NCBI RefSeq assembly: GCF_016616235.1
Contig: NZ_CP067100.1
Coordinates: forward strand, 6,321,001-6,385,000
Origin: Bradyrhizobium diazoefficiens
Lineage (GTDB): Bacteria; Pseudomonadota; Alphaproteobacteria; Rhizobiales; Xanthobacteraceae
Direction of reading: 5' to 3'
Length of the DNA: 64,000 bases
Shown here: positions 8,530 through 59,976 of the stretch, piece after piece
Numbering within the stretch: position 1 is the first letter of the stretch
Layout: each line of letters starts with the position of its first letter
Translations under genes and position numbers: made by a program
Notes under the pieces: model-generated
Databases searched by the model: none
The model's input: only the letters and a program-made list of their open reading frames with translations
Told to the model about the DNA's origin: nothing

Positions 8530-8538
8530 GGTGCCTCG

Positions 8539-9066: not shown

Positions 9067-9159
9067 AACCGTTCGATCTCCGCGGCCGGAACCGCCTTCT
9101 CCATCATCGTGAGCATGCTTATATCGGCTCGACCCGAATGTCATGCTAACGTCACGGCC

Positions 9160-10696: not shown

Positions 10697-10711
10697 CGCT
10701 TGGCAATTGGC

Positions 10712-11842
10712 TCAAGCCGCCAGCGGCACCGACCAGGCGTCGTAGCCATAGACCCAGCTGGTATCGGTCCGCTCTCTCAGCCAGATGTTGGCGCGCGAGG
10801 TCTCCTGCACGCGCGTCGTCCGCTCTTTACGCGTCGCCTCGAAGCGGCGGAAGGCATCTGCGACGCCGTCACGGCCGACGCCGTCGAGGCAGCGCGACAG
10901 CACGGCGGCATCCTCGATCGCCATGGCCGCGCCTTGCGCCATATAAGGTGTCATGGGATGACAGGCATCGCCAAGCAGCGTCACCTTGCCGTCGGCCCAG
11001 CGCGCCAGCGCCTCACGATCCATGATCGCCCATTTGTGCACGTCGGGACACGCCGCCAGCACTTTGCCGACCTGCGGATGAAAGCCTTCGAACGACGCGC
11101 GGAGATCGCGCACGTCACCCTTCGCCGACCAGGACTCGATGCGGAACTCCGGCTCCGGCTGGCTGGTGACGAGATAGACCTCGCTGCGATCCGGCTTGAC
11201 GTAATAGATCACGATGTGGCGGTCCTCGCCCCACCATTTCGTGCAGTCGTCGATCGTCTCGCCGCCGAGCAGCGCCGCGGGATAGGTGGTCCGATAGGCG
11301 ATGCGGCCAGTGAACCTGACCGGTGCGGTGTCGAACAGGATATCGCGCACTGTCGAATGCACACCGTCGGCGCCGACCACGGCATCGGCAACGGCGCTGG
11401 TGCCATTGGCAAAGGTGAGCCGGACGCCCTCGCCGGTCTCGTCGAGGCCGACGAGCTTGTGGTTGAGCTTCACGAATTCATTTGGCACCACGCTCGCCAG
11501 CGCCGCGTGGAGATCGCCGCGATGGGCGAGCAGATAGGGCGCGCCGAACTTCTCCTCAGCGCTCTCGCCGAAGATCATATCAAACTTGATCTCGCCGCTC
11601 TTCCAGTCGCGGTTATTCCAGGAGCGCGGGTAGAACGACTGACCGCGCATCCGCGCCTCCAGCCCGAGAGCCCGCAACACCTTCATGGCGTTGCAGCCGA
11701 TCTGGATGCCGGCGCCGATGCGGGCGAATTGGGAGGCCTGCTCGTAAACCATCACGTCGATGCCGACCCGCCGGAGCGCCGCGGCTGTTGCAAGCCCGCC
11801 CATGCCGGCACCGACGATCGCAACCGAAAGCGGCCTAGCCAT
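10712..11842 (-). CDS. FAD-dependent monooxygenase, 6-hydroxynicotinate 3-monooxygenase (NicC)-like
   Basis: A single-component flavoprotein hydroxylase of 376 residues: N-terminal dinucleotide-binding GAGMGG, a DG motif (VVGADGVHSTVRD) and the GD motif (LLGDACHPMTPYMAQGA). It shares with NicC of Pseudomonas the distinctive segments CTKWWGEDRH and WVYGYD near the C-terminus, and similar length. NicC decarboxylates and hydroxylates 6-hydroxynicotinate to 2,5-dihydroxypyridine. No other nicotinate-pathway genes are in the window. It lies 53 bases after the moeA-PBP fusion on the same strand and may belong to that operon. The product of a molybdenum nicotinate hydroxylase would be its substrate, which could explain its place among cofactor genes (inference). 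Confidence 0.78.
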   Translation of the reverse strand: MARPLSVAIVGAGMGGLATAAALRRVGIDVMVYEQASQFARIGAGIQIGCNAMKVLRALGLEARMRGQSFYPRSWNNRDWKSGEIKFDMIFGESAEEKFGAPYLLAHRGDLHAALASVVPNEFVKLNHKLVGLDETGEGVRLTFANGTSAVADAVVGADGVHSTVRDILFDTAPVRFTGRIAYRTTYPAALLGGETIDDCTKWWGEDRHIVIYYVKPDRSEVYLVTSQPEPEFRIESWSAKGDVRDLRASFEGFHPQVGKVLAACPDVHKWAIMDREALARWADGKVTLLGDACHPMTPYMAQGAAMAIEDAAVLSRCLDGVGRDGVADAFRRFEATRKERTTRVQETSRANIWLRERTDTSWVYGYDAWSVPLAA

Positions 11843-16110: not shown

Positions 16111-17337
16111 GTGAATCCAGCGAGATTTGGACTGCCGGTCGCGGCCGGCTTTGTAGCGACGTGCTTGGCGGCGCTGCTGCCGGGCGCCGCATTGGCGCAG
16201 GTGTCGGACGACGTGGTCAAGATCGGCGTGCTCACCGACATGAACGGTCCGGCCTCCGCGCCGACCGGCCAGGGCTCGGTGACGGCGGCGCAGATGGCGA
16301 TCGACGATTTCGGCGGCACCGTGCTCGGCAAGCCGATCAGCATTGTGATCGGCGACCACCAGCTCAAGGCCGATGTCGGCGGCGGCATCGCGCGGCGCTG
16401 GTACGATGTCGACCAGGTCGACCTGATCGTCGACGTGCCCGTCTCCGCGGTCGGGCTCGCGGTGCAGAACGTTGCCAACGAAAAGAAGCGGCTGTTCATC
16501 ACCCACTCCACCGGCACCGCGGATTTCCACGGCAAGTTCTGCTCGCCTTACGCGATCCAGTGGGTGTTCGACACCCGTGCGCTGGCCGTCGGCACCGCGG
16601 ATGCGGTGGTCAAGCGCGGCGGCGACAGCTGGTTCTTCATCACCGACGATTACGCCTTCGGCCACTCCCTCGAACGTGACGCCTCCAGCGTCGTCACCGC
16701 CAATGGCGGCAAGGTGCTGGGCTCGGTGCGGCCGCCGCTGGCGACGCCCGACCTCTCCTCCTTCCTGCTCCAGGCGCAGGCCTCCAAAGCCAAGATCATC
16801 GGCATTGCCGCCGGCCCTCCGAACAACATGAACGAGATCAAGACCGCCGCCGAGTTCGGCGTGCTCAAGGGCGGCCAGCAGATGGCGGCGCTGCTCGCGC
16901 TGATCACCGACATCCACGGCATCGGCCTGCACGCGGCGCAGGGCCTGTTGCTGACGACGTCGTTCTACTGGGACATGGACGACAAGACCCGCGAATGGTC
17001 GAAGCGCTATTTCGCCAAGATGAACAAGATGCCGTCGATGTGGCAGGCCGGCGTCTACTCCAGCGTGATGCACTATCTCAACGCCATCAAGGACGCCGGC
17101 ACCGACGATCCGCTTAAGGTGGCCGCGAAGATGCGCGAGAAGCCGATCGAGGATTTCTTCGCCCGCAACGGCAAGCTTCGCGAAGACAATCTGATGGTGC
17201 ATGACCTCTGGTTGGTGCAGGTGAAGACACCGGAAGAGAGCAAGTACCCGTGGGACTATTACAAGATCCTCACGACCATCTCCGGCGAGAAGGCGTTCGG
17301 ACCGCCGGACCCGGCGTGCGCCCTGGTGAAGAAGTGA
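16111..17337 (+). CDS. ABC transporter substrate-binding protein, branched-chain amino acid (LivK-like) family
   Basis: A periplasmic type 1 binding protein of 408 residues with signal peptide (VAAGFVATCLAALLPGAALAQ) followed by VKIGVLTDMNGPASAPTGQGS, the standard opening of this family. The GTG start at 16111 follows GGGGAGGA. In rhizobia these proteins bind amino acids, amides, aromatic acids or other small ligands; the ligand cannot be read from sequence. No permease or ATPase genes are adjacent, so it is an orphan binding protein or works with components encoded elsewhere. It is divergent from the tupA operon across about 257 bases. Confidence 0.92.
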   Translation: MNPARFGLPVAAGFVATCLAALLPGAALAQVSDDVVKIGVLTDMNGPASAPTGQGSVTAAQMAIDDFGGTVLGKPISIVIGDHQLKADVGGGIARRWYDVDQVDLIVDVPVSAVGLAVQNVANEKKRLFITHSTGTADFHGKFCSPYAIQWVFDTRALAVGTADAVVKRGGDSWFFITDDYAFGHSLERDASSVVTANGGKVLGSVRPPLATPDLSSFLLQAQASKAKIIGIAAGPPNNMNEIKTAAEFGVLKGGQQMAALLALITDIHGIGLHAAQGLLLTTSFYWDMDDKTREWSKRYFAKMNKMPSMWQAGVYSSVMHYLNAIKDAGTDDPLKVAAKMREKPIEDFFARNGKLREDNLMVHDLWLVQVKTPEESKYPWDYYKILTTISGEKAFGPPDPACALVKK

Positions 17338-17342
17338 CGATC

Positions 17343-17394
17343 GCGAGTGGCGAATAGGGAATGGCGAATGTGGGCCTTCCCATTCGCCACTCGC
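17343..17394. repeat. palindromic intergenic repeat of CGAAT/GCGAGT units
   Basis: A 13-base perfect inverted repeat (GCGAGTGGCGAAT at 17343-17355; ATTCGCCACTCGC at 17382-17394) encloses a further near-copy (GGCGAATG). Related ATTCGC units continue to about 17408. It sits between two convergent genes and could act as a bidirectional terminator. Its modular wording suggests a dispersed palindromic element and not a unique hairpin. Confidence 0.6.
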
Positions 17395-17407
17395 AACTCG
17401 CCATTCG

Positions 17408-18370
17408 CTACTTCACGACGCCGATCTCGCGAAAGTACCTCGCGACACCCGGATGGATCAGCTCCGGCTTCGGCGCGGCCGCGACCGTGTTCGCCGCGGT
17501 GGTCTCGCAGGCCTGCGCGAGCCGCTTGCAGAAGGCCGCTTCGATGCCGTGCAGCGTCTTCGCCAGCCGGTAGGCGACCTCGTCGGGCAAGTCCTCGCGG
17601 GTCAGCACAAAGCTCCAGGAGCCGAGCGAGGCGATCGGCTCGCTCTGCTTCGGATAGGAGCCGGCCGGCACGGTCAGCGGTTTGAGGAACGCATGCTTGG
17701 CGCGGATGCGCGCGATCTCCTCCGTATCAGGCGCGATGAAGCGCGCGCCTGCGGCACTCGAGGCCACCGCGGCGAAACCGGGCCAGCCGATGCCGGCGCC
17801 CCACAGCGCGGCGGCGCGGCCATCCTCGACCATCGCGGGGCCGTCGCCGGCGCGGTCGAGATAGATCGCCTTGAAGTCTTCGTCCTGCTTCAGGCCAAGG
17901 CCGTCGAGCACATAGCGTGCGAGAATCGGCAGGCCCGAGCCCTTGGCACCGAACGCGACCGGATGCCCGACCAGATCGCGGATGGTCCTATAGGGACTGT
18001 CGGCGCGCACCACGAACATGCCGGGGTTGGAATAGATCGCGGTCAAGATCTTCAGCCGCACCGGCGCGCGGCCGATGCCGGCAAAGGCCTCATAGGCCGG
18101 CTCGCCCGCGACCAGCGCGAGATCGAGTTCGCCCTTCTCCAGCAGCGGAATGTTTTCGTTGCTGCCCTTGGTATTGCGCGGCGTGATGGTGATTTGCGGA
18201 TCGGCCGCGTTCATGATTTCCGCAAAGGCGTTGCCATAGAGCGGAAAGCCGCCGCCGGGCGTTGCGGTGCCCAGGCTGAGGGTCGTGGTCGGAATGGCCT
18301 TGCCTCCGGTTTGGGCCGCGGCGGGGCTTGCGAGCAGCACCGCGGCGAGAAGGAGAATTGCGAATCTCAT
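17408..18370 (-). CDS. TAXI-family TRAP transporter solute-binding protein
   Basis: A 320-residue exported binding protein. The signal peptide (MRFAILLLAAVLLASPAAAQ) is followed by LSLGTATPGGGFPLYGNAFAEI, the usual TAXI start. Later blocks are ELDLALVAGEPAYEAFAG, GAKGSGLPILARYVL and the C-terminal HPGVARYFRE. TAXI proteins deliver ligands to TRAP-type secondary transporters; no TRAP permease is in the window. The ATG at 18370 gives the signal peptide; the frame is open further upstream only antisense to the next gene. The ligand is unknown. Confidence 0.9.
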   Translation of the reverse strand: MRFAILLLAAVLLASPAAAQTGGKAIPTTTLSLGTATPGGGFPLYGNAFAEIMNAADPQITITPRNTKGSNENIPLLEKGELDLALVAGEPAYEAFAGIGRAPVRLKILTAIYSNPGMFVVRADSPYRTIRDLVGHPVAFGAKGSGLPILARYVLDGLGLKQDEDFKAIYLDRAGDGPAMVEDGRAAALWGAGIGWPGFAAVASSAAGARFIAPDTEEIARIRAKHAFLKPLTVPAGSYPKQSEPIASLGSWSFVLTREDLPDEVAYRLAKTLHGIEAAFCKRLAQACETTAANTVAAAPKPELIHPGVARYFREIGVVK

Positions 18371-46881: not shown

Positions 46882-47676
46882 TTAGCCATCCGACGGCAGT
46901 CCCTGCTCTATCTCGCGAAAGCGCAGCGGCGCCATGGCAGATGCGCGCTGCCACCAGTCGGCGACGCGGTCGTCGAGCGCGGTCACGCCTCGGCCCTGGC
47001 CGGGAAAGATCCGGATCTGCTGCACCGCCTCGGCTTCGAAGCCTTTGCCCTTGCGCGTGATCTTGACCGCGGCGCCTTCGCGGTCGCGCTGGGTCAGCGG
47101 CACCAGCAGGCGGCCGCGCGGGCGGAGCGACCGGAGCCAGAGCGGATGCGGATGCGAGAAGCCGGCATGCACGATGATGACATCGGCCGGTCCGCCGATG
47201 TCGCGGCGGCCGTCGCCGCGGACGACCTCGACATTGTCGTAGGCGCGAAGATAGCTCGCGGCACGCGTCGCCAGCCGCTCGTCGCAATCGACTGCCATCA
47301 CGCGCCCTTTCGGGCCGACCATCTTCGACAGCACGGCCGAGAAATAGCCGAGCCCGCAGCCGATCTGAACCACGTGGTCCTTATCTTTGACATCGAGCAG
47401 GTCGATGAAATGCGCCCACAGGCTCGGCAGGCCGGTGTCGAGCTTGCGGCGCGCGTCGATCGCGACCAGCACGTTATCGTAGAGATGGACGGGATCAGCA
47501 TCGGGCGTCAGCCGGTAGCTGTGCGCTGCCGCACTCCTAACGCGCCAAGGGCCTCTTGTCAGAAAATCCTCGCGCGGGACGGCGGCCAACGCTTCGAGCA
47601 AGCGCTTTGAGGCAATCCGCTCGCGCTTCGCAATCATCGCAACGTAATGCGCACGCGCGGCGGCAATATCACTCAT
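46882..47676 (-). CDS. protein-L-isoaspartate O-methyltransferase-like methyltransferase
   Basis: A 264-residue SAM-dependent methyltransferase of the PIMT fold. It has a helical N-terminus (ERIASKRLLEALAAVPREDFL) typical of PIMT, a SAM motif VVQIGCGLGYFSAVLSKMVG, then AVDCDERLATRAASYLR and DGRRDIGGPADVIIVHAG. Canonical PIMT repairs isoaspartyl residues. The classical substrate-loop residues are not fully conserved, so a modified specificity is possible. Its ATG overlaps the stop of the large cyclase-ATPase gene (ATGA), implying coupled expression. Confidence 0.78.
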   Translation of the reverse strand: MSDIAAARAHYVAMIAKRERIASKRLLEALAAVPREDFLTRGPWRVRSAAAHSYRLTPDADPVHLYDNVLVAIDARRKLDTGLPSLWAHFIDLLDVKDKDHVVQIGCGLGYFSAVLSKMVGPKGRVMAVDCDERLATRAASYLRAYDNVEVVRGDGRRDIGGPADVIIVHAGFSHPHPLWLRSLRPRGRLLVPLTQRDREGAAVKITRKGKGFEAEAVQQIRIFPGQGRGVTALDDRVADWWQRASAMAPLRFREIEQGLPSDG

Positions 47677-50600
47677 CGCACGGGATCAGCCGGTTCGTGA
47701 ACCGGCGCCTGCGCGCCGAGCTCGTTGACGAGCTGCATCGCCTGCTTCAGGTCCGGCGTGTAAAAGCCCTCGCTGAATTTGCCGACGATCGGGACCAGCA
47801 GCAGGCTTGCATGCTCGCGCTTGCCGGCCTCCTGCGACAGGCGCGCGAGGCTGACGGCGGTGCGCAGCTCCCAGGACAGCGCGCCCTGCTTGCGCGCGGT
47901 CTCCAGCGACAGCGCGAACAGATCCTCGGCCTCCTGCACCGACGCCGGATCGCGGTCCAGCAGCGTGATCTCGCCCTGCAAGCGGTAGACCTCGGCAAGG
48001 TAGGAGTGATCGCCGGTGCGCCTTGCGGTCGCGAGCGCGCCGTCCAGCGCGCGCAAGGCGGCATCGCGCATCCCGACCTTGGCGTAGGCTTCCGCCAGCA
48101 GGCAGCGGAACCAGCAGCCGGCGAGCCAGGAATCCATCGCCTCGTATTCGTCGAGCCCCAAGCGCATCTGGCTGATGCCCTCGTCGGCCTCGCCAAGCTG
48201 CGCCAGCGCCCAGCCGCGCAGGATCGCGGCCTGCTGCTTCCAGTGCAGGAAATTGTGCTCGGTGGCGATGATCATGGCGCGGTTGGCGTGGTCGCGCGTG
48301 CCCTCGATATCGCGCAGATGCTGGCAAAGATAGGCGCCGAACACGAGCGCGAAGGCGAGCGAGAAGGGATGACGAATCTTCTCGGCGTGCAGGATCGCCT
48401 GCTCGCTGTGCTGGCGCGCAGCATCGGGCCGGCCGAGGAACCACAAGAGGTAGCCGAGATAGGATAGCGAGACGACGCCGGGATCGGTGCCATGCCGCTC
48501 CATCAGATCAGAATGCAGGTCGGGGCTGTAGAGATTGATGCAGCGATGCAGATGATGCTGGGACGCGGCAAAACGCCCACGATAGAGCATGGTCATCGCG
48601 ATCGAGCGGTGCGCCTCGATCAGATAGCCGGTCTGCTGCGCCGGCTGGCTCCGCTCGTTGAGGCGCTCGCGCTTGGCGAACTTCAGCAGCTCGACGCTGA
48701 GATCGTGCGCGCGGGTGAGATCGGCGCGGATGAAATGGCAGACCCAGAGCCCGCGCGTGGCGGCAAAGGCCTTTTCCTCGTCGTCGAGCTGCCGGCCGAG
48801 CTCGAGCGCGCGGATGTAGTTCTCCTCGACCTCCTGCACCGCATAGCCCTTGGCGGCGATTAGGGCATTGCCGAGCGCGATGCGCAGCTCGAGCTCCATC
48901 TCGTCGGCACCCCGCATGCGCGCATTGGCCTGCACGACGCTGAGGCCCCGGCGCAGATGGCCGATCGCCTCCAGATTGGCGCCGCTCTTGGCCGCCTGCT
49001 TGCCGGCCTTGAGCCAGAAGCTGGCGGCGCCCTCGCTCTGGCCCGACTCGGTGAGGTGATGGGCGAGCAGCTCCGGCTCGCGTTCGGTCTTCTCCGGATA
49101 CATCTCCGCGAGCACCTGGGCGATGCGGGAATGCAGCTTGCGCCGCTCGCTGTGCAACAGGCTCGCATGCGCAGCGTTCTGGATCATCACGTGCTTGAAC
49201 GAGTACAGCGCATCGGGCGGATGGCCGCGGCGCATGATCAGCCCGGCCTCTTCGAGATGATTGAGCGCCGCCTCGATCTGCTCGGAAGGCGTGTTGGCGA
49301 CCGCGTGCAGCGTCTCGTAGGAGAATTCGCGGCCGATGGTGGCGCCGATCTGCGCAATCCGCTTGAACGGCCCCATCCGGTCGAGCCGCGCCATCAGCGA
49401 ATCGGTCAGGGTCGCCGGAATGGCGAGCTGCCGCCACGGGCCCGACAGCACATAGCGGCCGTGCCGTTCGGTCAACAGGTTGGATTCGAGAACGGTCTTG
49501 GTCAGCTCCTCCAGGAACAGCGGCACGCCGTCGGTCTTGACGATGATCTCCTCGACGACCTCCTTGGGAAGCTCGCGGCCGGCGACGCGCTCGACCAGCG
49601 TCGTGCGCAGCTGCCGGCTCAGACGATTCAGCACCAGCGTGGTGATGTGCGAATGCGCGTTCCAGCTCGGCTGGAATTCGGAACGCGCGGTGATGATGAC
49701 CAGGATCGGCCGGTTCTGCACCCGGTCGACCAGGAGATCGATCACCTCACGGGAGGTCGGATCGATCCAGTGCAGATCCTCGAACGCGATCACCAGCGGC
49801 ATCTCGCGCGCGAGGCCGAGGAAGTGGCTGACCAGCGCCGCGACGGTCGCATCCTTCTGCTGCTGCGGCGACAGCTCGAGCGGCGGATAGCGATCTCCGG
49901 TCGGAATCGACAGCAGCACGGCGAACAGCGGCGTGACCTGCTCGATGTCGCCATGCGCGGCGGCGATCGCGGTCTCGAGGCTCGCCAGCGATGCCGCGGA
50001 TGGATCCTCGCGGTCGAGGCCGAGCGAGAATTTGAGCTGCTCGGCGAACGGATAGAACGCCGTGGAGGTGTAATAAGGCGAGCACTGGAACGAGACCTGC
50101 CCGTGGCGGTCGCCCGCAATCCGCTCGAAGATCTCCTGGATGATGCGCGACTTGCCGATGCCGGGCTCGCCGAACTTGACCACGACCTGGCCGTCGCCGT
50201 CCCTGACCTGCTGCCAGCGGCTCATCAACAGCGCAATCTCCTCCTCGCGGTTGACGAGCGGCGTCAGCCGCGTCCCCATGGCCGCGGCGAATCGGGTCTC
50301 CACCCGGGAGGCGCGCACCACGTGCCAGGCCTGCGCTTTCTCCGAGATGCCCTTCAAGTCATGCACGCCGAGACTGCGGTAGTCGAACTTTCCCTTCAGC
50401 AGCGACTGGGTCGAGGAGGAAATCACGACGCCATTGGGCGGCGCCAGGGCTTGCAGGCGCGCGGCAAGATTGACGGTTTCTCCGACCGCGGAGTCGCGCT
50501 CCTCGGTGCCCTGTCCGACGAGATCGCCGACCACGACGAGACCGGTCGCGATGCCGATGCGGACGGCGGGCGAGTGGCTGAGCGCCCCGCGCGGCTCGAT

Positions 50601-51143
50601 CGCGCGCGCGCTCGACAGCACCCGCACGATCTCGAGCCCGGCCCGCACGGCGCGCTCGGCGTCGTCTTCATGCGCGGTCGGATAGCCGAAATAGACCAAA
50701 ATACCGTCGCCGACGAAACGGGCGGCGAAACCCTCGTAATGCTTGACCACGCGGACGCAGGTCTCGCGGAAGCTGGCGATCATGTCGCGCACGTCTTCCG
50801 GATCGAACTGCACCGAGAGCGAGGTGGAATCCACCATGTCGCAGAACATGGTGGTGAGCTGACGCCGTTCGGCGCCGACTTCCGTCCGGGCTTGCGGCTG
50901 CACTGCTGTGTCGGGTTTCGCTGCGGTCTCGGCCTGGTACAGCGCCGCCATCGCCCGCTGCAGCCGCTTGCGATCGCCGAGCGGCAGCCCGAGCTCGACC
51001 AGATCGGATTCGGTCAGATCCCCCATGACATCGAGATCGAGGCGGTGCTGGGCGAACAGATCGCCGTAATGGCCGAGACCGACGCCATCGAGCCAGCGCT
51101 TCAGCCCGCCTCCCGTTCCCGTGTCAAGCTCGTTCTCCAGCAT
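47673..51143 (-). CDS. SAM-domain adenylate cyclase fused to AAA-type ATPase and TPR-like region
   Basis: A 1156-residue multidomain signalling protein. An N-terminal sterile-alpha-motif domain (about 8-70; LKRWLDGVGLGHYGDLFAQHRLD) is followed by a class III cyclase domain (about 95-270). Its metal Asps lie in TTMFCDMVDSTSLSV and RFVGDGILVYFGYPTAHEDD, and a further motif is VGETVNLAARLQ. An AAA/NACHT-like ATPase domain comes next (Walker A FGEPGIGKSRI; Walker B LVIAFEDLHWIDP). About 500 helical residues like TPR repeats end the protein. The ATG at 51143 is preferred; the frame continues 53 codons upstream into the divergent NRPS promoter. It may make cAMP under control of the STAND-like ATPase. 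Confidence 0.9.
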   Translation of the reverse strand: MLENELDTGTGGGLKRWLDGVGLGHYGDLFAQHRLDLDVMGDLTESDLVELGLPLGDRKRLQRAMAALYQAETAAKPDTAVQPQARTEVGAERRQLTTMFCDMVDSTSLSVQFDPEDVRDMIASFRETCVRVVKHYEGFAARFVGDGILVYFGYPTAHEDDAERAVRAGLEIVRVLSSARAIEPRGALSHSPAVRIGIATGLVVVGDLVGQGTEERDSAVGETVNLAARLQALAPPNGVVISSSTQSLLKGKFDYRSLGVHDLKGISEKAQAWHVVRASRVETRFAAAMGTRLTPLVNREEEIALLMSRWQQVRDGDGQVVVKFGEPGIGKSRIIQEIFERIAGDRHGQVSFQCSPYYTSTAFYPFAEQLKFSLGLDREDPSAASLASLETAIAAAHGDIEQVTPLFAVLLSIPTGDRYPPLELSPQQQKDATVAALVSHFLGLAREMPLVIAFEDLHWIDPTSREVIDLLVDRVQNRPILVIITARSEFQPSWNAHSHITTLVLNRLSRQLRTTLVERVAGRELPKEVVEEIIVKTDGVPLFLEELTKTVLESNLLTERHGRYVLSGPWRQLAIPATLTDSLMARLDRMGPFKRIAQIGATIGREFSYETLHAVANTPSEQIEAALNHLEEAGLIMRRGHPPDALYSFKHVMIQNAAHASLLHSERRKLHSRIAQVLAEMYPEKTEREPELLAHHLTESGQSEGAASFWLKAGKQAAKSGANLEAIGHLRRGLSVVQANARMRGADEMELELRIALGNALIAAKGYAVQEVEENYIRALELGRQLDDEEKAFAATRGLWVCHFIRADLTRAHDLSVELLKFAKRERLNERSQPAQQTGYLIEAHRSIAMTMLYRGRFAASQHHLHRCINLYSPDLHSDLMERHGTDPGVVSLSYLGYLLWFLGRPDAARQHSEQAILHAEKIRHPFSLAFALVFGAYLCQHLRDIEGTRDHANRAMIIATEHNFLHWKQQAAILRGWALAQLGEADEGISQMRLGLDEYEAMDSWLAGCWFRCLLAEAYAKVGMRDAALRALDGALATARRTGDHSYLAEVYRLQGEITLLDRDPASVQEAEDLFALSLETARKQGALSWELRTAVSLARLSQEAGKREHASLLLVPIVGKFSEGFYTPDLKQAMQLVNELGAQAPVHEPADPVR

Positions 51144-51280
51144 GGTGATTTCCGCCCGACCATCACTCCGTCGAAGGGCTTTAGAGCCCCTCAACCACAG
51201 ATTTTGGGGCCCGAACTTCACCTCAGACTGGACGCGTTCCCTAAGTCTTGGGAAGAATAGCCCAATCGGATCAAAAGGGA

Positions 51281-54200
51281 ATGGCGTTGTCGGACATTGC
51301 ATCCGGAGCGGGAGAGGGATCGGACGGCTCTGGCGCCGAAACCAGGACCTTTGCCCATATCGGCGGCCTTCTAGAGCATTATGCGCGGACGACGCCGGCG
51401 GCGCCGGCCCTGCTCGGCCCTGGCCGGCCGGCCCTCACCTATGGCGGGCTGAACGACCGGATCCGGCATCTGGGCCGCACCCTGCGCGGACTTGGCATCG
51501 GCCCTGCCGACCGCATTGCCGTTGCGCTGCCGCGCGGCGCCGACAGCGCGCTCGTGCTGATCGCAGTCGCGTCGAGCTGTGCCTGCGTCCCCGTCAATCC
51601 GGATCTGACTGCGGATGAGCTGCAACGCTATTTCAGCGAACTGAAGCTCACGGCGCTCGTCACCCGGGCCGACATGAACTCACCAAGCCGCGACGTCGCC
51701 AAGGCGCTCGATATCGCGGTGATCGATTTCGTGCCGGGACCGAAAGACGATCTCGGCGGCTGCGAATTCGCCGGTCCGACGGTCGGACCGGCGAACGGCA
51801 GCGGCGGCTCGCGCGCCGATGACGACGCTTTCATCCTGTTGACGTCAGGTACGGCGGCACGGCCGAAAATGGTGCCGCTGACGCAGCGCAATGTGTGCCT
51901 GTCCGCCCACAATGCCGGCCGCGTGCTGTCGCTCGCGCCGCACGATCGCTTGCTCAACGTCCTGCCGCTGTTTCACGCCCATGGCCTGATCTCCGGCCTG
52001 CTGACGGCGCTGGCCGCGGGCTCCAGCGTGATCTGCACCGAGGGTTTCGACGCCGCGTCCTTCTTCGGCTGGATGCGGGAGCTGCGGCCGACCTGGTACA
52101 CGGCGGTGCCGACGATCCATCGCGCGCTGCTGACGGCGACGGAAGCAAATCCGGACCGCGTCCGCTCGTCGTCGCTGCGCGTGATCCGCTCGGCGTCCGC
52201 TTCGCTCGCGCCCGCGATCCTGAACGGCCTGGAAGCAATCTTCGGTGTTCCCGTGCTCGAGACCTACGGCATGACGGAAGCGGCCTCGCAGATCGCCGCC
52301 AATCCGTTCGAGCTGCGCAAGATCGGATCGGTCGGCCGCGCCGCAGGACCCGAGATCGCGATCATGGACGAGACCGGCCGCGCCCTTGCGAGCGGCGAGC
52401 GCGGCGAGATCATGCTGCGCGGACCGAACATGAGCCGCGGCTACTATAATGACGAGGCGGCCACGCAGGCCGCGTTCCGCGACGGCTGGTTCAGGACCGG
52501 CGATCTCGGCTATCTCGACGCCGACGGCTATCTCTTCATCGTCGGCCGCATCAAGGACGTCATCAACCGCGGCGGCCAGAAGATCTCGCCGCTCGAAGTG
52601 GAAGAGGTCCTGCTGAGCCATCCCGCGGTGCTGGAAGCCGGCGTGTTCGCGGTCCCGCACCCGAAGCTCGGCGAGAACGTCGCCGCGGTCGTGGTGCTGC
52701 GGCCGAATTCCGAGGCGAGCTCCGACCAGCTGCGCCAGTTCGCGCGAAAACGTCTCGCCGCCTACAAGGTGCCGAGCCTGATCCGCAGCGTGGCGGCGCT
52801 GCCGAAAGGCGCCAGCGGCAAGGTCAAGCGCAACGCGCTGGTCGAACTGATCGCGACGGCGGAGGACGCCGATGAGGAGCAACTGCCGCGCAATACGCTG
52901 GAGACCCAGCTCGCCGAGATCTGGGCCGCTCTGCTGGAGCTTCCGCAAGTCGGCATCGACCAGGACGTCTTCGCGCTCGGCGCGGACTCGCTTGCGGTGA
53001 CGCAGATGCGCTCGCGGCTGCGCGAACGCTTTGGCGTCGACTTCTCGTTCGAGGACATCTTTGATTGCGCCACGGTCAGTGCGCTTGCGGCCCGGATCGA
53101 GACCGCCGCAAGCCATCGTGACGCGGCGCTGCCAGCCTGGCGTCAGGGTACGGAAACCGATGCGCCGCTGTCGTTCCAGCAGCAGCGGATGTACGTGCTC
53201 TCGCGGCTTGATCCGACGCACTATAATTACAACGTCGTCGAAGTCGCGCGGCTTAAGGGGCAGGTCGACGTCGCGGCGCTTTCTGCGGGCCTCACCGCGA
53301 TCTGCGCGCGCCACGAGGCGCTGCGCTCGGTCTTCATCGAACGGCAGGGCGAGCCGGCGCAGCGCGTGCTGCCATCGCCGTCGCGGTTCGAACGGATCAG
53401 GCTCAAGCCCTGCCCTGCCGACAAGCAGGCCGCGGTCATCAGGCGCGAGGCGCTCAAGCTCGCGCAGTACAAGTTCGATCTCGCGCGCGAGCCGCCCCTA
53501 AAGGTCACACTGCTCTCCTTCGACAAATCCAGCCACGCGCTGGTGGTCAATGTGCATCACCTCGTCACCGACGGCTGGTCGCAGCGGTTGTTCTGGGAGG
53601 AGCTTGCCGCCCATTACGCCGCGGCGCGCAAGGCGAACATGGCGGCACTCCCGTCGCCCACCTTCCAGTACCGCGACTTTGCACTATGGCAGCAGAGCTG
53701 GGCACAGACGCCGGCGGCGAAGGAGCAGCTCGATTATTGGAAGACCCAGCTCGACGGCGTCACCACCCTGCCGCTGCGCACCGACCGGCCACGGCCGCAG
53801 GTCTGGAGCGGTCGCGGCGCCCGTCATTATCTCGAGTTCTCCAGGACACTGTCGGGCGATATTCGCGCATTGAGCCAGCACCAGGGCGTCACGCCGTTCA
53901 TGACGCTGCTCGCGGCGTTCCAGTGCCTGCTGTTCCGCCACACCGGGCATGAGGATGTCGCGACCGGATCGCTGATCGCCAACCGCAACCAGATCGAGAG
54001 CGAGCGCCTGATCGGGCTGTTCGCCAACACGCTGATCCTGCGCAACGATTTTGCCGGCGATCCGAGTTTCGGCGAGGTGTTGCGGCGAGTGCGGCAGGTG
54101 ACGCTCGATGCCTATCGCAACCAGGATCTGCCGATCGAGCAGGTGCTGCGCGCCTTGCAGGTTGCGCGAAGGACGGACGGCAATCCGCTGTTCCGGATCA

Positions 54201-57200
54201 TGTTCATCCTCCAGAATGCCTCGATCGAGGCGGCGCGTTTCGCCGGCCTATCGGCGCGACGGATCGAGATCGACCCAAAAGTCGCGCGCTTCGACATCAC
54301 GCTCGAACTTGTCGAGGCCGACGGCCGCTTCACCGGCTTCTTCGAATACGCCACCGATCTGTTCGACACGGCGACGATCGCAGGCATGGCAAACCAATTC
54401 AAAACCCTGCTCAAGGCCGCCATCGCCAGTCCGGAGCAGCGCATCTCGCGTCTGCCGCTTCTGACCGCGGCCGAATGCCGGCAGTTGCTGGCGCAAGGCC
54501 GCGGAGCTTCCGCCAACCTCACCCGGCGTGGCAATCTCTGCGAACGCTTCGACCGCCAGGCCAAGAAGACGCCGAACGCGATCGCGGTATCGGACGGCCA
54601 CGCCTCCCTGACCTATCGCGAGCTGGCCCAGCGCAGCCAGGCCGTCGCGCACTGGCTGACGCGCGAGGGCGTCGGGGCCGAGACAGTGGTTGCCCTGCTG
54701 GCCGAGCGCGGGCCCGACCTCATCGCCGCGATGATCGGCGTGCAGCGCGCGGGCGCGGCCTTCCTGAACCTCGATCCCGAGCAGCCGCTGGCGCGGCTTG
54801 CGACCATTTTGGGATCGAGCTGCGCCCAGGTGCTGCTGGCCGGCTGCGCGCAATCGCCAATGGTCGGAGCGCTGCTCGAACCGCTGGCCGGACGCATCCA
54901 TGTGGCCGAGCTCGAAGACGCAATCGCGCCAAGGGCGACCAAGCCCGCCCGCGCCGCGCGGCGCGAAGCTGCGAGCCTTGCCTATCTCATCTATACATCC
55001 GGCTCCTCCGGCGCCCCCAAGGGCGTCATGATCGAGCAGCGCGGGCTGTCGAACCATCTGGCCTCGCTGATCTCTGAGCTCCGCCTCTCGGCCAGGGACG
55101 TGATCGCGCAGACCGCGCCGCAGAGCTTTGTCATCTCGGTCTGGCAATGCCTCGCCGGCCCGATGGTCGGCGCGCGCGTTCACATCTGCGGCAACGAGGT
55201 CGTGAAGGACCCGATCCTGCTCGCGCGGGAGATCGCGCACGAGGGCATCACGGTGCTGGAGATCGTGCCATCGCTGCTGCGTGCGATCCTCGATCGCATG
55301 GACGAGCCGCATGTCCTGCGCGCCTTCGCGAAGCTGCGGCTCCTGATCTCGACCGGCGAGCCGCTGCCGGTCGAGCTCTGCCGGGCCTGGTTCGCCCGCT
55401 GCCCGAGAGTACCGCTGATCAACGCCTATGGCGCATCGGAATGTTCCGACGACGTCTCCTTGCATCGTCTGACCAAGGCGCCGACGACCACGACGAGCAA
55501 CGTTCCGGTCGGCGCGCCGCTGCCGAACACCCAAATCTACGTACTCGATGCAAACCTCCACCCGCAGCCGGTCGGCGTCGTCGGCGAGCTCTGCATCGCC
55601 GGCGCCGGCGTCGGCCGCGGTTATGTCAACGATCCCGCGCAAAGCCGGCAGCGCTTCCTGCCCGATCCGTTCGCCAGCAAGGCAGGCAGCCGGCTGTACC
55701 GGACCGGCGACCTCGCCCGCCGCCGCAGTGGCGGCACGATCGAGTGCCTCGGCCGCGCCGACCACCAGGTCAAGGTCCGCGGCTACCGAATCGAGCTCAA
55801 GGAGATCGAGACCGCGCTGGCCGAGCATCCTGACGTGCGCGCCGGCATCGTCGAGCCGCACCGCGAGGCGAGCGGCGATGTCAGGCTGATCGCCCATATC
55901 GTCGCAAAGCCCGGCACCCAGAGCAGCGCCAGCGAGCTGCGCGAGTTCCTGAAGAGCCGGTTGCCGGGCCATGCCGTCCCGTCCGCCTTCCTGTTCCTGG
56001 ATCAGGTACCGCTCAATGCCCATGGCAAGATCGACCGGTCGGCGCTGCTGGCACCCGCCCAGGTGGACGCGTCCGGGCCGGATGCGGCCGTGCCGGCGCG
56101 GCGCTTCACCGAAAAAGTGCTCTCCGACATCTGGATCGACCTGCTGAAGGTCGAGAGCCTTGGCGTCACCGATAATTTCTTCGACCTCGGCGGCCATTCG
56201 CTGCTGGCGGGCCAAGCGATGGCGCGCGTCGCCCGCGCGTTCGGCGTGTCGCTGCCGATCAAGACCATCTTCGAGGCGCCGACGATCGAAGAGCTCGCCC
56301 GGCGGGTGGATGAAGCCGCGGCGACGAAGCCAGCCAAGCCTGCCGCAAGCGTGCCGCGGTTGGGCGAGCAGGGACTTCCGGCAATCTCGATCGCGCAGGA
56401 TCAGATGCTGCGGATCGAGCGCAATCTGGCGGGACTGCCGCTGTTCAACCTGCCCTTTGCCTTCCGTCTCCAGGGCTCGCTCGATCCGGCCGCCCTGGTG
56501 CAGGCAATCGACGATATCGCAGCCCGGCACGAATCGCTGCGGACCATGTTCGGCTGGAACGGCGAGGAGCCGACCAGCAGCATCGTTCCACCCGGCGAGC
56601 TCCGCCCGGTGCTGACCGTCGAGACGATCGGCGACGGTCAACCGCACAATAAAAAGCGCCGCAAGGCCCTAGAGCTCAGGAAGATCGACCTCCTGATCGA
56701 ACAGGAGACGTATACTCCGATCGACACCACACAGGCGCCGCTAATGCGGGCGCGGTTGTTGCGGCTCCACGCCGAGGATCATGTGCTGCTGCTGACGCTG
56801 CATCATGCCGTCGTCGACGGCTGGTCGATCGGCGTGCTGTTCGAGGAATTGTCGCGCCGCTACGCGGCGCTGGCCGGATATCCGTCGGTGCCGCTACCGA
56901 GCCCGCCGCCGGCCTTCTCGGATGTTGCACGCTGGCAGCGCTGGTGGTGCGGCACCGACGCCGCCCGCCGCCAGGCCGCCGACTGGACCGAAAATCTGCG
57001 CGGCGCGGTCCCGCTCTTCGATGGCGAATCAAGCCCGGGCCCATCCACGGGGCATCATCCCGTCAGCCTCGATCGCGAGCTGATCGGGCGACTCGCGGCC
57101 TTTGCCAGCCAGCACAACGGCACCTTGTTCATGTGCCTTCTCACCGGTCTGAAGGTCCTGCTGCTGGCGCGAACCGGCCGCACCGACATCGCGGTCGCCA

Positions 57201-57724
57201 CCGCCATGGCCAATCGTGCCCAGCCCGACACCGATCGTATCCTCGGCCCGTTCGAGAACACGGTGATCGTCCGCACCACGATCACGCCCGATCTGCCGTT
57301 CGCGGCAGCTCTGGCCCGGGTGCGCCAGAGCGTGCTCGAGGCACATGCGCGGCAGGAGCTGCCGTTCAACATCCTGGCCGATCATCTGGAGCGGGAGGGC
57401 ATCGATCCGGCCGGCCTGCTTCAGGTCTATTTCACCCTACAAAATCCGCTGCGCCAGCCACTCGATCTGCCTGATCTGACGACAGCATCGATCGGCAACA
57501 TCGCGCGCGAAGGCCAGCCGGTGCTGCCGATCGATCAGACCTGGCTGTCGCTGATGCTCAAGGAGCGCCCGAGCGGAATCACGGGATCATTCAACTATAA
57601 GGGCGAACTGCTCGACGGTCATGTGGTCGGCGAGTGGATGGAGGATCTGGTCGCGCTGCTGGTCGCCGCCATCGCTCAGCCCAACGCGCCGCTCGGACGA
57701 TTGCTCGCGCGCAGGGCAGCGTGA
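51281..57724 (+). CDS. nonribosomal peptide synthetase, CoA-ligase-like starter-T-C-A-T-C
   Basis: A 2147-residue synthetase. Domains: acyl-CoA-ligase-like adenylation (about 20-520; LLTSGTAARPKMVPLTQ near residue 185, INRGGQKISPLE); carrier T1 (GADSLAV, Ser about 569); condensation C1 (HHLVTDGWS about 757); amino-acid adenylation A2 (YTSGSSGAPKGVMI about 1237, NAYGASECSDD, NAHGKIDR); carrier T2 (LGGHSLLA, Ser about 1640); terminal condensation C2 (HHAVVDGWS about 1841). No thioesterase or reductase ends the line, so C2 probably releases the product onto an amine or alcohol. The starter resembles the Pcs60/oxalyl-CoA-synthetase group. The specificity code read by eye for A2 is V-I-W-E-I-T-A-D-D-K. 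The ATG at 51281 has AAGGGA immediately in front; a TTG 6 bases later is an alternative. Confidence 0.95.
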   Translation: MALSDIASGAGEGSDGSGAETRTFAHIGGLLEHYARTTPAAPALLGPGRPALTYGGLNDRIRHLGRTLRGLGIGPADRIAVALPRGADSALVLIAVASSCACVPVNPDLTADELQRYFSELKLTALVTRADMNSPSRDVAKALDIAVIDFVPGPKDDLGGCEFAGPTVGPANGSGGSRADDDAFILLTSGTAARPKMVPLTQRNVCLSAHNAGRVLSLAPHDRLLNVLPLFHAHGLISGLLTALAAGSSVICTEGFDAASFFGWMRELRPTWYTAVPTIHRALLTATEANPDRVRSSSLRVIRSASASLAPAILNGLEAIFGVPVLETYGMTEAASQIAANPFELRKIGSVGRAAGPEIAIMDETGRALASGERGEIMLRGPNMSRGYYNDEAATQAAFRDGWFRTGDLGYLDADGYLFIVGRIKDVINRGGQKISPLEVEEVLLSHPAVLEAGVFAVPHPKLGENVAAVVVLRPNSEASSDQLRQFARKRLAAYKVPSLIRSVAALPKGASGKVKRNALVELIATAEDADEEQLPRNTLETQLAEIWAALLELPQVGIDQDVFALGADSLAVTQMRSRLRERFGVDFSFEDIFDCATVSALAARIETAASHRDAALPAWRQGTETDAPLSFQQQRMYVLSRLDPTHYNYNVVEVARLKGQVDVAALSAGLTAICARHEALRSVFIERQGEPAQRVLPSPSRFERIRLKPCPADKQAAVIRREALKLAQYKFDLAREPPLKVTLLSFDKSSHALVVNVHHLVTDGWSQRLFWEELAAHYAAARKANMAALPSPTFQYRDFALWQQSWAQTPAAKEQLDYWKTQLDGVTTLPLRTDRPRPQVWSGRGARHYLEFSRTLSGDIRALSQHQGVTPFMTLLAAFQCLLFRHTGHEDVATGSLIANRNQIESERLIGLFANTLILRNDFAGDPSFGEVLRRVRQVTLDAYRNQDLPIEQVLRALQVARRTDGNPLFRIMFILQNASIEAARFAGLSARRIEIDPKVARFDITLELVEADGRFTGFFEYATDLFDTATIAGMANQFKTLLKAAIASPEQRISRLPLLTAAECRQLLAQGRGASANLTRRGNLCERFDRQAKKTPNAIAVSDGHASLTYRELAQRSQAVAHWLTREGVGAETVVALLAERGPDLIAAMIGVQRAGAAFLNLDPEQPLARLATILGSSCAQVLLAGCAQSPMVGALLEPLAGRIHVAELEDAIAPRATKPARAARREAASLAYLIYTSGSSGAPKGVMIEQRGLSNHLASLISELRLSARDVIAQTAPQSFVISVWQCLAGPMVGARVHICGNEVVKDPILLAREIAHEGITVLEIVPSLLRAILDRMDEPHVLRAFAKLRLLISTGEPLPVELCRAWFARCPRVPLINAYGASECSDDVSLHRLTKAPTTTTSNVPVGAPLPNTQIYVLDANLHPQPVGVVGELCIAGAGVGRGYVNDPAQSRQRFLPDPFASKAGSRLYRTGDLARRRSGGTIECLGRADHQVKVRGYRIELKEIETALAEHPDVRAGIVEPHREASGDVRLIAHIVAKPGTQSSASELREFLKSRLPGHAVPSAFLFLDQVPLNAHGKIDRSALLAPAQVDASGPDAAVPARRFTEKVLSDIWIDLLKVESLGVTDNFFDLGGHSLLAGQAMARVARAFGVSLPIKTIFEAPTIEELARRVDEAAATKPAKPAASVPRLGEQGLPAISIAQDQMLRIERNLAGLPLFNLPFAFRLQGSLDPAALVQAIDDIAARHESLRTMFGWNGEEPTSSIVPPGELRPVLTVETIGDGQPHNKKRRKALELRKIDLLIEQETYTPIDTTQAPLMRARLLRLHAEDHVLLLTLHHAVVDGWSIGVLFEELSRRYAALAGYPSVPLPSPPPAFSDVARWQRWWCGTDAARRQAADWTENLRGAVPLFDGESSPGPSTGHHPVSLDRELIGRLAAFASQHNGTLFMCLLTGLKVLLLARTGRTDIAVATAMANRAQPDTDRILGPFENTVIVRTTITPDLPFAAALARVRQSVLEAHARQELPFNILADHLEREGIDPAGLLQVYFTLQNPLRQPLDLPDLTTASIGNIAREGQPVLPIDQTWLSLMLKERPSGITGSFNYKGELLDGHVVGEWMEDLVALLVAAIAQPNAPLGRLLARRAA

Positions 57725-57867
57725 GCCGCTGCACAGCACGGACGAATACGGGTTCACGCGCCAAAGCTGTGAGTGAGCAAGTTGCATCTTGATTATTTGG
57801 CGCGCGCCGCGCAAGATTATTCCCGTGTTTTGATTTGGACGATCATTTTCAACCGGGGGAGTGTGTT

Positions 57868-58035
57868 ATGGGTTTCATCAAATTTACCAAGGGTACCTCG
57901 CTGAGCGACAAGGACCGCAAGGCCCTGCAAAAGCTGCTGAACGACGAGCGCAAGAAGCTCCAGTCGGCGCTCAAGGATGTCGACACCAGCCTTTCGATGC
58001 TGGGCGGCGCGAAGAAAGCCAAGAAGAAGAAGTAA
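57868..58035 (+). CDS. 55-residue lysine-rich protein between NRPS and PPTase genes
   Basis: GGGGGAG lies about 9 bases upstream of the ATG, so translation is well supported. The protein has a short hydrophobic start (MGFIKFTKGTSLSDKD), an amphipathic helix (KALQKLLNDERKKLQSALKDVDTSLSMLGG) and an all-lysine/alanine end (AKKAKKKK). It has no Cys and no export signal. It follows the NRPS by 143 bases and precedes the PPTase by about 230. There is no recognised family. It might be a helper of the synthetase, as MbtH-like proteins are, although it lacks the MbtH motif. It may also be an unrelated nucleoid-type protein. Confidence 0.7.
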   Translation: MGFIKFTKGTSLSDKDRKALQKLLNDERKKLQSALKDVDTSLSMLGGAKKAKKKK

Positions 58036-58267
58036 GACTCGTCGGCCGGGACGCCGCACGAATCTTCAGGCTTCATATTCCGGACATGGGCCGCTCGCGC
58101 GTCGAGCTGGGGTCTCGCACAAGCTTGCGCCTGTAAACCGGCCTCCAAATCGACAAGAAATTGCCTGGGTGGACCGTTAGAAGCGGTCCGCTCGTTGATT
58201 CTTGCTCAGTTGATTCTTCCGTCAGGGCCGGAGACTTCGCCTCCGCCTGACGCCATGGGCCCAATTG

Positions 58268-58999
58268 ATGGCAGACGACAGAATTGAACTGTTTGTCGGA
58301 CTGATCGAGTCCATTGACGCGCCGGGCGCGGCCGATGCGTGCCGGCGCCTGCTCTCGGCCGACGAGCGGGTCCGCGCCGACCGCTTTGTGTTCGAGCGGC
58401 ATCGGCGGCAGTATATTTTCGCGCACGCGATGCTGCGGTTGGCGCTGTCCCAGGTCGCGCCCAACGTTGCGCCGTCGGACTGGTCGTTTGGCGCCGGCTG
58501 CTACGGGCGGCCGTACGTTGCGGCGCCCGCGACTTCAACCGCGCTGCATTTCAGTCTGTCGCATGCCGATGGCTGCGTCGCCTGCGTGGTGTCGGGTCAT
58601 GAGGCCGTCGGCGTCGACGTCGAAACCGTGTCGCGGCGGGTGGCGCCGCTGTCGACCGCGCTTCGCTTCTTTGCGCCGGAGGAGGTCGAAACCCTGCGCG
58701 GACTGCCGGAGCCCGCCGCGATCGAGCGCTTCTTCGACTACTGGACGCTCAAGGAGGCCTATCTGAAGGCCAGGGGTTTTGGGCTCAATCTGCCGCTCGA
58801 CGCCTTCGCGATGCAGATCTCGCGCGAGGCGATCGGGATCAGCTTCAAGCCCGATATCGCCGACGATCCGCGAGGCTGGCGCTTCTCGCTGTGCTCGCCG
58901 TCCCCCTCGCATCGCCTCGCGATCGCCGACGGCTCTCGTGCGGACGGCGGCCTTCCCATCGCCCGCAATGCCTGGCCGTTCCAGGAAGCGGCTGAATGA
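58268..58999 (+). CDS. 4'-phosphopantetheinyl transferase (Sfp-type)
   Basis: A 243-residue enzyme that attaches the phosphopantetheine arm of CoA to carrier domains. The two signature blocks are AVGVDVETVSRR (metal-binding Asp and Glu) and FFDYWTLKEAYLKARGFGL; the FSLSHADG CoA-binding segment is also present. Length and motifs fit the broad-specificity Sfp group. The ATG at 58268 is used; a TTG lies 3 bases earlier. Its end overlaps the monooxygenase start (ATGA). It very likely primes the two carrier domains of the adjacent synthetase. Confidence 0.94.
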   Translation: MADDRIELFVGLIESIDAPGAADACRRLLSADERVRADRFVFERHRRQYIFAHAMLRLALSQVAPNVAPSDWSFGAGCYGRPYVAAPATSTALHFSLSHADGCVACVVSGHEAVGVDVETVSRRVAPLSTALRFFAPEEVETLRGLPEPAAIERFFDYWTLKEAYLKARGFGLNLPLDAFAMQISREAIGISFKPDIADDPRGWRFSLCSPSPSHRLAIADGSRADGGLPIARNAWPFQEAAE

Positions 59000-59976
59000 C
59001 GCCGCCGCGGCTGCGCGTCTTTCCCGCGATCTCGCGCAACCGCGATCCTCAAAAATATGTCGGCGAGCTGATGCGCGTGGCGGAGTTCGCCGACTGCAAC
59101 GGCTTCGAGGGCATTTTGCTGTTCGAAGGCAACGACGTGTTCGTCGAGCCCTGGGCGATGGCCCAGCACATCCTGGCTGCGACGACACGGAGCTCGCCGC
59201 TGATCGCGGTCAATCCGGTCTACATGCACCCGTTCACGGCGGCAAAATTCGTCTCATCCTTTGCGCAGCTCTACGGCCGCAAGGTCTATCTCAACATGAT
59301 CACCGGGACCGCGGTCAGCGATTTGCAGGGGCTCGGCGACGACCAGCCGCATGCCGACCGCTATGTCAGGCTCGGCGAGTTCGTCGCGCTGATGCGCCAG
59401 TTGCTGGCAAGTCCGCGGCCAGTGAATATGGTGGGCCGGTTCTACCGCGCCAGCAACCTGCAGCTGCGTCCGCGCCTGCCGGCGGAGCTGATGCCGGAAT
59501 TTCTGATCGCAGGCCAGTCCGAGCCGGCGCAGCGCGTCGCGAAAGAGACCGGCTGCATCAAGATGCAGATGCTGCCGCCCGATCTCGACCGCGGCCTCGC
59601 TGTATCAGGCATGAATTTTGGCATCTTCGCTCGCGAGAGCCGTGAGGAGGCGCGGCAAGCGGCAAAGGCGCGCTTTCGCGACAACCCCGACGACCGCGAA
59701 TTGCTGGCGCTCACTGTGGAGAACAGCGATTCGGTGTGGAAGCAGCGGCTCTATGAGGGCCAGAGCGGCGAACTTCAGGAGAATGGCTATTGGCTGTTGC
59801 CGTTCCTGACCTTCCAGGCCGACTGCCCCTATCTCGTCGGCAGCTACGAGGAGATCGGCACCAGGCTGAAGCAGTTCGCGGCAAAGGGCCTGACCACTGT
59901 CATGCTCGACATGGTCGCGGACGAGACCGAGATGCAGCATGTCTGCAAGGCCCTCGCGGCGAGCGGGATGTTTTGA
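58996..59976 (+). CDS. luciferase-like (LLM class) flavin-dependent monooxygenase
   Basis: A 326-residue TIM-barrel enzyme of the bacterial-luciferase/alkanesulfonate-monooxygenase superfamily, which uses reduced FMN supplied by a partner. Blocks include LMRVAEFADCNGFEGILLFEGND, RSSPLIAVNPVYMHP, GRKVYLNMITGTAVSDLQGLGDD and FLIAGQSEPAQRVAKETG, as in SsuD-like proteins. It is translationally coupled to the PPTase. In the NRPS locus it probably oxidises the peptide product or a precursor (N-hydroxylation, oxidative cleavage or similar), but the reaction cannot be assigned. No flavin reductase is adjacent. Confidence 0.9.
   Translation: MTPPRLRVFPAISRNRDPQKYVGELMRVAEFADCNGFEGILLFEGNDVFVEPWAMAQHILAATTRSSPLIAVNPVYMHPFTAAKFVSSFAQLYGRKVYLNMITGTAVSDLQGLGDDQPHADRYVRLGEFVALMRQLLASPRPVNMVGRFYRASNLQLRPRLPAELMPEFLIAGQSEPAQRVAKETGCIKMQMLPPDLDRGLAVSGMNFGIFARESREEARQAAKARFRDNPDDRELLALTVENSDSVWKQRLYEGQSGELQENGYWLLPFLTFQADCPYLVGSYEEIGTRLKQFAAKGLTTVMLDMVADETEMQHVCKALAASGMF

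Follow-up and report, generated by a model that had tools for sequence, protein, structure and literature searches.

The window examined here is a stretch of 64,000 nucleotides from the chromosome of Bradyrhizobium diazoefficiens (NZ_CP067100.1, positions 6,321,001 to 6,385,000; all positions below are counted from its first letter). It contains a nonribosomal peptide synthetase (NRPS) cluster of six genes that lie on both strands of the chromosome. The cluster is real and is present in about half of the genus as sampled here. We tentatively propose, with the balance slightly against us, that it joins an oxalate-type to a γ-aminobutyrate (GABA)-type building block and adds an oxidation, a methylation and a signaling arm.

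Architecture of the cluster

A preliminary description of this DNA drew the locus at 51281-59976 and saw in it a self-contained four-gene pathway. The four genes, for a synthetase of 2147 amino acids (aa), a lysine-rich protein of 55 aa, a phosphopantetheinyl transferase (PPTase) and a luciferase-like monooxygenase (LLM), are indeed all complete within these limits. The boundary is nevertheless too narrow. Two upstream genes on the minus strand, a methyltransferase and a cyclase-AAA gene, are linked to the others and are members as well, and the PPTase is not exclusive to the cluster; a self-contained four-gene pathway is thus not supported. The features are as follows; T, C and A stand for carrier, condensation and adenylation domains.

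46882..47676, minus strand: S-adenosylmethionine methyltransferase of the PIMT/PCMT family, 264 aa, proposed carboxyl O-methyltransferase of the product (Pfam PF01135, 9.5e-24)
47673..51143, minus strand: SAM - class III nucleotide cyclase - AAA_16 - TPR protein, encoded divergently to the synthetase gene (Pfam; TPR below cut-off)
51144..51280: divergent intergenic region, conserved over much of its length in an alignment of 95 sequences
51281..57724, plus strand: NRPS with domain order ligase-T-C-A-T-C, 2147 aa (Pfam)
51347..52870, plus strand: starter ligase resembling oxalyl-CoA synthetases (PDB matches 6qjz, 5ie0 and 8aff; conserved pocket)
53147..54493, plus strand: condensation domain C1, HHLVTDG (Pfam, motif reading)
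54536..56095, plus strand: adenylation domain A2, code VIWEITADDK, with Val at position 235 (GrsA numbering)
56381..57700, plus strand: terminal condensation domain C2, HHAVVDG, in the clade of the C domains of ligase-T-C synthetases
57868..58035, plus strand: lysine-rich protein, 55 aa, possibly cyclase-associated
58268..58999, plus strand: PPTase, part of the local backbone and not NRPS-exclusive (PF01648, 1.9e-16)
58996..59976, plus strand: LLM flavin monooxygenase of the SsuD superfamily, whose proposed substrate is the carrier-bound chain (PF00296, 2.9e-25)

Four Pfam families, AMP-binding, AMP-binding_C, PP-binding and Condensation, each match the synthetase in two stretches. A, T and C domains, with their catalytic motifs intact, in a single chain place it among the NRPSs. 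As the preliminary description held, the motifs are undamaged in the window, and the same is true of relatives (compared in rows of 50% identity or more, with some genomes giving more than one row). The C1 motif HHxxTDG is found in all readable relatives (100 of 102 rows readable), as is the C2 motif HHxxxDG (95 of 96 rows readable). The T1 motif G(A/V)DS(L/I) is present in 103/103 rows and the T2 motif GGHSL in 100/100. The PPTase and LLM genes overlap by four bases (ATGA), the methyltransferase and cyclase genes by 4 bp, and 14 of the 55 residues of the small protein are lysines.

Median ratios of nonsynonymous to synonymous substitution rates (dN/dS) against relatives, computed over the first 600 codons at most, are 0.184 for the NRPS (95 rows), 0.168 for the 55-aa gene (91 rows; maximum 0.67), 0.135 for the PPTase (91 rows) and 0.130 for the LLM (89 rows). 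Medians of 0.13 to 0.18 indicate that selection acts on all four proteins. For the methyltransferase the median is 0.244, from 8 rows only.

The starter ligase

The ligase that opens the synthetase is most likely a loader of a small diacid, with oxalate as the first candidate. Its top three PDB matches, 6qjz, 5ie0 and 8aff, are all named as oxalyl-CoA synthetase or oxalate-CoA ligase and score 386, 382 and 280 bits; the next family reaches 206. Oxalyl-CoA synthetases (AAE3/Pcs60) are thus its nearest structurally known relatives. His234, Thr274 and Arg303 of the pocket align with the same residues of these enzymes (with Ser for Thr in the yeast-type 8aff); pocket numbering and roles are those that we presume from alignments and from GrsA. 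The three residues are kept in 92/92 rows above 70% identity, in 8/8 rows at 57-70% and in 4/5 ligase-T-C enzymes, and the set is absent from five other ligases compared in the same genome (40 matches in all). The whole pocket string AHITRATGASQ recurs in 90/92 rows above 70%, the remaining two having one change apiece, and in 8/8 rows at 57-70%; these last represent at most six genomes, because the loci L098/L106 and L096/L107 are duplicates. The window enzyme differs from the oxalyl-CoA synthetases in being fused to a carrier protein and in having lost part of their pocket, as weighed below.

The adenylation domain

The second building block is predicted from the code of A2. Among 100 readable rows (2/102 were too partial for reading) it is VIWEITADDK in 90, VIWQITADDK in 8, and VVWEITADDK and VIWELTADDK in 1 each. 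Val occupies position 235 in all 100, down to 56% identity. The best PDB match of the domain core is an A domain of PvdL (9up2, 9lco, 9lcp, 9lcq) with the code DIWELTADD, presumably followed by a final K. Seven of nine pocket positions are identical between the two; the window domain has Val instead of Asp235 and Ile at position 299. For P. fulva, PvdL(ORF1) is predicted to give Glu-D-Tyr-Dab, where Dab is 2,4-diaminobutyrate (PMC12195549). From this we infer that the PvdL domain in the PDB is its Dab domain. The window domain, with Val at 235 throughout, does not have the Dab-type code with Asp235.

Asp235 is the usual anchor of the α-amine in A domains, and GABA is Dab minus its α-amine. Val in place of Asp235 therefore fits an amino acid without an α-amine, and we predict, most simply, GABA as the substrate of A2. 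Among the other A domains compared, Asp235 is kept in 13/14 rows, and the exception is a Novispirillum domain. Its cluster combines an aspartate decarboxylase gene (yielding β-alanine) with an NRPS whose last A code, ADTLVSLADK, also lacks Asp235. Loss of the residue beside this decarboxylase gene supports the idea that it accompanies loss of the α-amine.

The preliminary description had an acyl group joined to one amino acid. This can be refined, since an ordinary α-amino acid is unlikely for a code that lacks Asp235. Our substrate prediction is sharper and more unusual than the earlier one.

Distribution and co-conservation

Orthologs were counted on one set of 117 Bradyrhizobium genomes. 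The synthetase is carried by 58 (53 full length; 3 broken, G040, G046 and G078; 2 variants without C2, G029 and G064). At 1e-200 the synthetase is matched in 63 genomes, 4 of which hold only ligase-T-C relatives and 1 (G087) another NRPS; these 5 were pooled with 54 others as synthetase-negative, giving a split of 58 versus 59. G039 and G103 were flagged with one TGA, yet have open frames of 2169-2170 residues and were counted as full.

The methyltransferase occurs in 56/58 synthetase genomes (missing in G039 and G103) and in 0/59 others. The LLM occurs in 49/58 and 0/59, its carriers being 44 full, 3 broken and 2 variant genomes. All 49 LLM-bearing genomes thus also carry the synthetase, which supports the placing of both in one pathway by the preliminary description. 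For the cyclase-AAA gene, counting orthologs from 70% identity upward, the figures are 54/58 and 3/59. In G039 and G103 the synthetase has a cyclase of about 41% as a neighbor, and in G029 and G064 no cyclase matched at 1e-150. The PPTase is found in 52/58 versus 5/59 (two matches of 41-42%, in G070 and G098, were left out of the count), and in G029 and G064 it is located away from the synthetase. These counts reject chance linkage of the genes, with the caveat that the genomes are related.

That the synthetase has its own PPTase, as first described, is not borne out. Loci were examined for three of the five synthetase-negative carriers; in each the PPTase keeps its chromosomal position, and a second ACPS-family match occurs in the genome. 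We therefore rejected a dedicated PPTase.

In L143-L146, which hold no synthetase, the flanking genes, U2, the PPTase and an HDAC-like gene, lie together. The variable block thus consists of the methyltransferase, cyclase, synthetase, 55-aa and LLM genes. Three loci show deletion scars: a C2 fragment and a decayed 55-aa gene next to the PPTase (L142), a weak remnant of the 55-aa gene (L143), and the cyclase gene with the tail of the LLM gene (L150). Absence is thus partly due to loss.

Among 199 genomes of the order, 6 match the synthetase at 1e-170, all Bradyrhizobium (five orthologs; G109 has another NRPS). The sample has 193 non-matching genomes, and none of the 20 listed is Bradyrhizobium. 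Outside Bradyrhizobium, an ortholog of 54% or more was seen on one doubtful contig alone, L094. This contig is labeled Frankia sp. RB7 and holds a Bradyrhizobium locus (LLM 92% identical), so that its label or assembly is doubtful. On plasmids, the matches of the protein query P0001 were all below 60% identity (33-35% in the best rows) and resemble ordinary NRPSs, and PADLOC gave no match for the synthetase, the LLM or the 55-aa protein.

Condensation domains and related synthetases

A midpoint-rooted FastTree tree of 26 C domains, displayed with no support values, places C2 together with the C domains of ligase-T-C enzymes and apart from C1; the ligase-T-C domains are sister to the C2 of L115. 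The shared clade suggests that the terminal acceptor may be common to both kinds of synthetase. A literature search for terminal C domains and putrescine found nothing.

The ligase-T-C synthetases of other Bradyrhizobium (L108, L109, L111, L112) have a ligase 57-58% identical to that of the window, a terminal C domain of the same clade and a cyclase-like gene within about 6 kb. They differ in having no C-A-T module, and no LLM or 55-aa match was found in the stretches examined. The variant cluster of B. nitroreducens (L098/L106) and Bradyrhizobium sp. Y36 (L096/L107) shares ligase-T-C-A-T (61-62%), the methyltransferase (62%) and the LLM (73-74%). It lacks C2; a separate C-A-T protein, with a code that we take to be glycine-type, comes next and in L107 ends in a thioesterase. 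The variant loci give no cyclase, 55-aa or PPTase match.

Proposed tailoring enzymes

The predicted LLM model (mean pLDDT, the predicted local distance difference test, 87.3) has MsuD/SsuD as its best folds, at about 20% identity (Foldseek E 1.1e-18). It shares the fold of these alkanesulfonate monooxygenases, but nothing in the alignment corresponds to the Arg-Leu-His-Val stretch of SsuD. With 73.2 bits against a cut-off of 518.2 it falls outside the SsuD class (NCBIfam TIGR03565), and TIGR04020, the natural-product LLM model, does not appear in the list of 11 families with E up to 0.001.

Neighborhoods could be read for nine distant relatives (L101, L102, L103, L104, L137, L138, L139, L140 and L141; L105 was left out because of a contig end, and 3/5 plasmid records were viewed). 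Eight of the nine lie near A, carrier, NRPS or polyketide synthase (PKS) genes, and five have a PPTase within two genes. The exception is L102 (Chitinophaga qingshengii, 8004-11011), where the LLM adjoins a methylaspartate mutase E (MutE-like) gene and no match to the window's NRPS domains was found. On the Gemmobacter fulvus plasmid of L138 (2036-6292) consecutive genes are annotated as halogenase, LLM oxidoreductase, acyl-CoA dehydrogenase and PPTase. LLMs of PKS clusters have been described as α-hydroxylases and Baeyer-Villiger-type enzymes (PMC8739492). Passages on how the oxime of necroxime is formed (PMC7318616) do not name the family of the oxygenase and were set aside. We propose that the window's LLM oxidizes the carrier-bound chain at its α-CH2.

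The methyltransferase belongs to the PF01135 family only: it scores 83.4 and 80 bits against PIMT equivalog cut-offs of 188 and 159.05. It also matched part of a PADLOC mad2 model. Relatives occur in 51 plasmid records, with unrelated neighborhoods in the two viewed.

The cyclase and the 55-aa protein

A longer open reading frame has Met at residues 1 and 54, and the cyclase start was set at the second of these. In many relatives the alignment begins near residue 52 of this frame, in others at 30-37 or earlier. The protein falls short of the TOMM kinase/cyclase model (TIGR03903, 544 bits versus a cut-off of 705.75). Its cyclase domain matches PADLOC models of the Pycsar cyclase PycC (best 1e-17; the cyclase side alone was compared). 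The cyclase-AAA-TPR family is expanded in the genus: at 1e-150 a single genome can have as many as 6 matches (6 being the most scored).

Weak paralogs of the 55-aa protein (E 1.6e-4 and 2.8e-6; 42-46% identity) lie some 105 to 127 bp from where the match to a cyclase paralog ends in L147 and L148, where the stretches examined hold no match to the window's NRPS. Hence, the 55-aa protein may go with the cyclase. A third paralog (G034, E 4.2e-4) sits close to a contig end, 153 bases away, and the 15 kb examined hold no cyclase match.

A cyclase-like gene is also found within about 6 kb in 5/5 ligase-T-C loci. That of L110 is confirmed by Pfam, and the evidence for the others is BLAST matches of 28-33% to the cyclase region. 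The gene is a common one in L109, L111 and L112 (87-90% identical), and these three are not independent. With 26 such cyclase domains in the 7.67 Mb of the genome studied here, chance proximity alone is unlikely, though we noticed the pattern after the fact.

The proposed pathway and its alternatives

Under our proposal, the ligase would charge T1 with a small acid that bears a second carboxylate, most likely oxalate, and the A domain would put an amino acid without an α-amine, most simply GABA, onto T2. C1 would condense both to an oxamoyl-GABA thioester. Where present, the LLM would oxidize the carrier-bound chain, most likely at the free α-CH2. A free amine or alcohol, perhaps an acceptor shared with the ligase-T-C synthetases, would then receive the chain from C2, and the PIMT-like methyltransferase would esterify a free carboxylate. 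The cyclase-AAA and 55-aa proteins could form a signaling arm that controls the pathway or answers its product. The order of domains, the intact motifs, the conserved pockets and the co-conservation are observed; all substrates and reactions of this scheme, and the cyclase's role, are inferred. A bolder version, which we regard as unlikely, makes the product a small oxalate/GABA signal, an oxidized and methyl-esterified oxamoyl-GABA amide or ester, coupled to cyclic-nucleotide signaling via the dedicated cyclase-AAA and its 55-aa partner; the ligase-T-C enzymes would make a one-unit version of it.

Several observations weigh against the oxalate and GABA proposal. The ligase pocket departs from that of the oxalyl-CoA synthetases at four positions (Cys to Ala305, the second His to Ser336, Ala to Thr and Ala to Gly), so that the substrate may be another small diacid instead of oxalate. 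Thiols, which may or may not include the aligned Cys, have been identified as active-site residues of rice OsAAE3 (PMC9301600); this Cys is Ala in the window. Loss of Asp235 is not unique, being seen also in 4/12 A-like domains, all of them stand-alone enzymes near LLM relatives. The Dab assignment of the PvdL domain in the PDB is our own reading of a prediction. Literature searches for the A-domain code found no paper, and one on GABA and Asp235 listed a single paper, on pentaminomycins. The LLM lies far under all 11 NCBIfam cut-offs listed, so that the reaction proposed for it is tentative. Moreover, 9/58 synthetase genomes have no LLM, 2 have no methyltransferase and both variants have no cyclase, and the co-occurrence p-values ignore the relatedness of the genomes and are a guide only.

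One could also argue that A2 activates a γ-amino acid that does bear an α-substituent, either Dab bound differently or 4-amino-2-hydroxybutyrate. The close likeness to the PvdL pocket, in which the only other change is Leu to Ile, speaks for this. We nevertheless consider it rather improbable, given the invariance of Val at the position where the α-amine is usually anchored and the retention of Asp235 in 13 of the 14 rows for other A domains, the exception being from the cluster with an aspartate decarboxylase gene. An ordinary acyl-amino acid, in which a fatty or aryl acyl starter is joined to one common amino acid and released as an amide or ester, appears quite improbable to us. NCBIfam does list FadD7-type and other acyl-CoA ligase models for the protein, with FadD7 below its cut-off (580.9 versus 650 bits). 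The PDB matches, in contrast, favor oxalyl-CoA synthetases by 180 bits over the next family, the pocket Arg and His are conserved, and the A code has no Asp235.

We give still less credit to a metallophore, in which the LLM, or a FAD (flavin adenine dinucleotide)-type neighbor in one clade, would yield an N-hydroxy-oxamate or hydroxamate ligand. The Novispirillum LLM relative does lie in a region with TonB receptor and MFS genes, and the divergent locus L115 (G103) has a FAD monooxygenase-like gene beside the synthetase (16326-17990) with a weak Lys/Orn-oxygenase match. Yet Pfam finds no TonB receptor or exporter among the co-conserved genes here, and a term search of a review of flavin N-hydroxylases (PMC7347517) finds no mention of luciferase, LLM or flavin mononucleotide (FMN).

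If the oxalate and GABA proposal is true, this conserved NRPS would use an unusual combination of building blocks, supplied by an oxalate-type loader and a GABA-type A domain. Oxalate and GABA are both common in plants, and Bradyrhizobium are major soil bacteria and legume symbionts. The preliminary description knew of no metabolite from this arrangement, and our literature searches likewise listed no described match. The PvdL-type pocket with another residue in place of Asp235 is well suited to testing the rules of A-domain specificity. Thanks to the co-conserved cyclase, simple deletion would be enough to test whether a metabolite is linked to cyclic-nucleotide signaling.

Other observations in the region

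In 13/58 loci measured (L039, 10979-15200, and 12 others) an insert of 4.2-4.4 kb separates the LLM and HDAC-like genes. The insert in L039, the sole one scanned, carries an ABC importer and a CRP-type regulator. A second NRPS lies about 137 kb away on the same chromosome (G000:C1:6515996-6521476; L002, L003).

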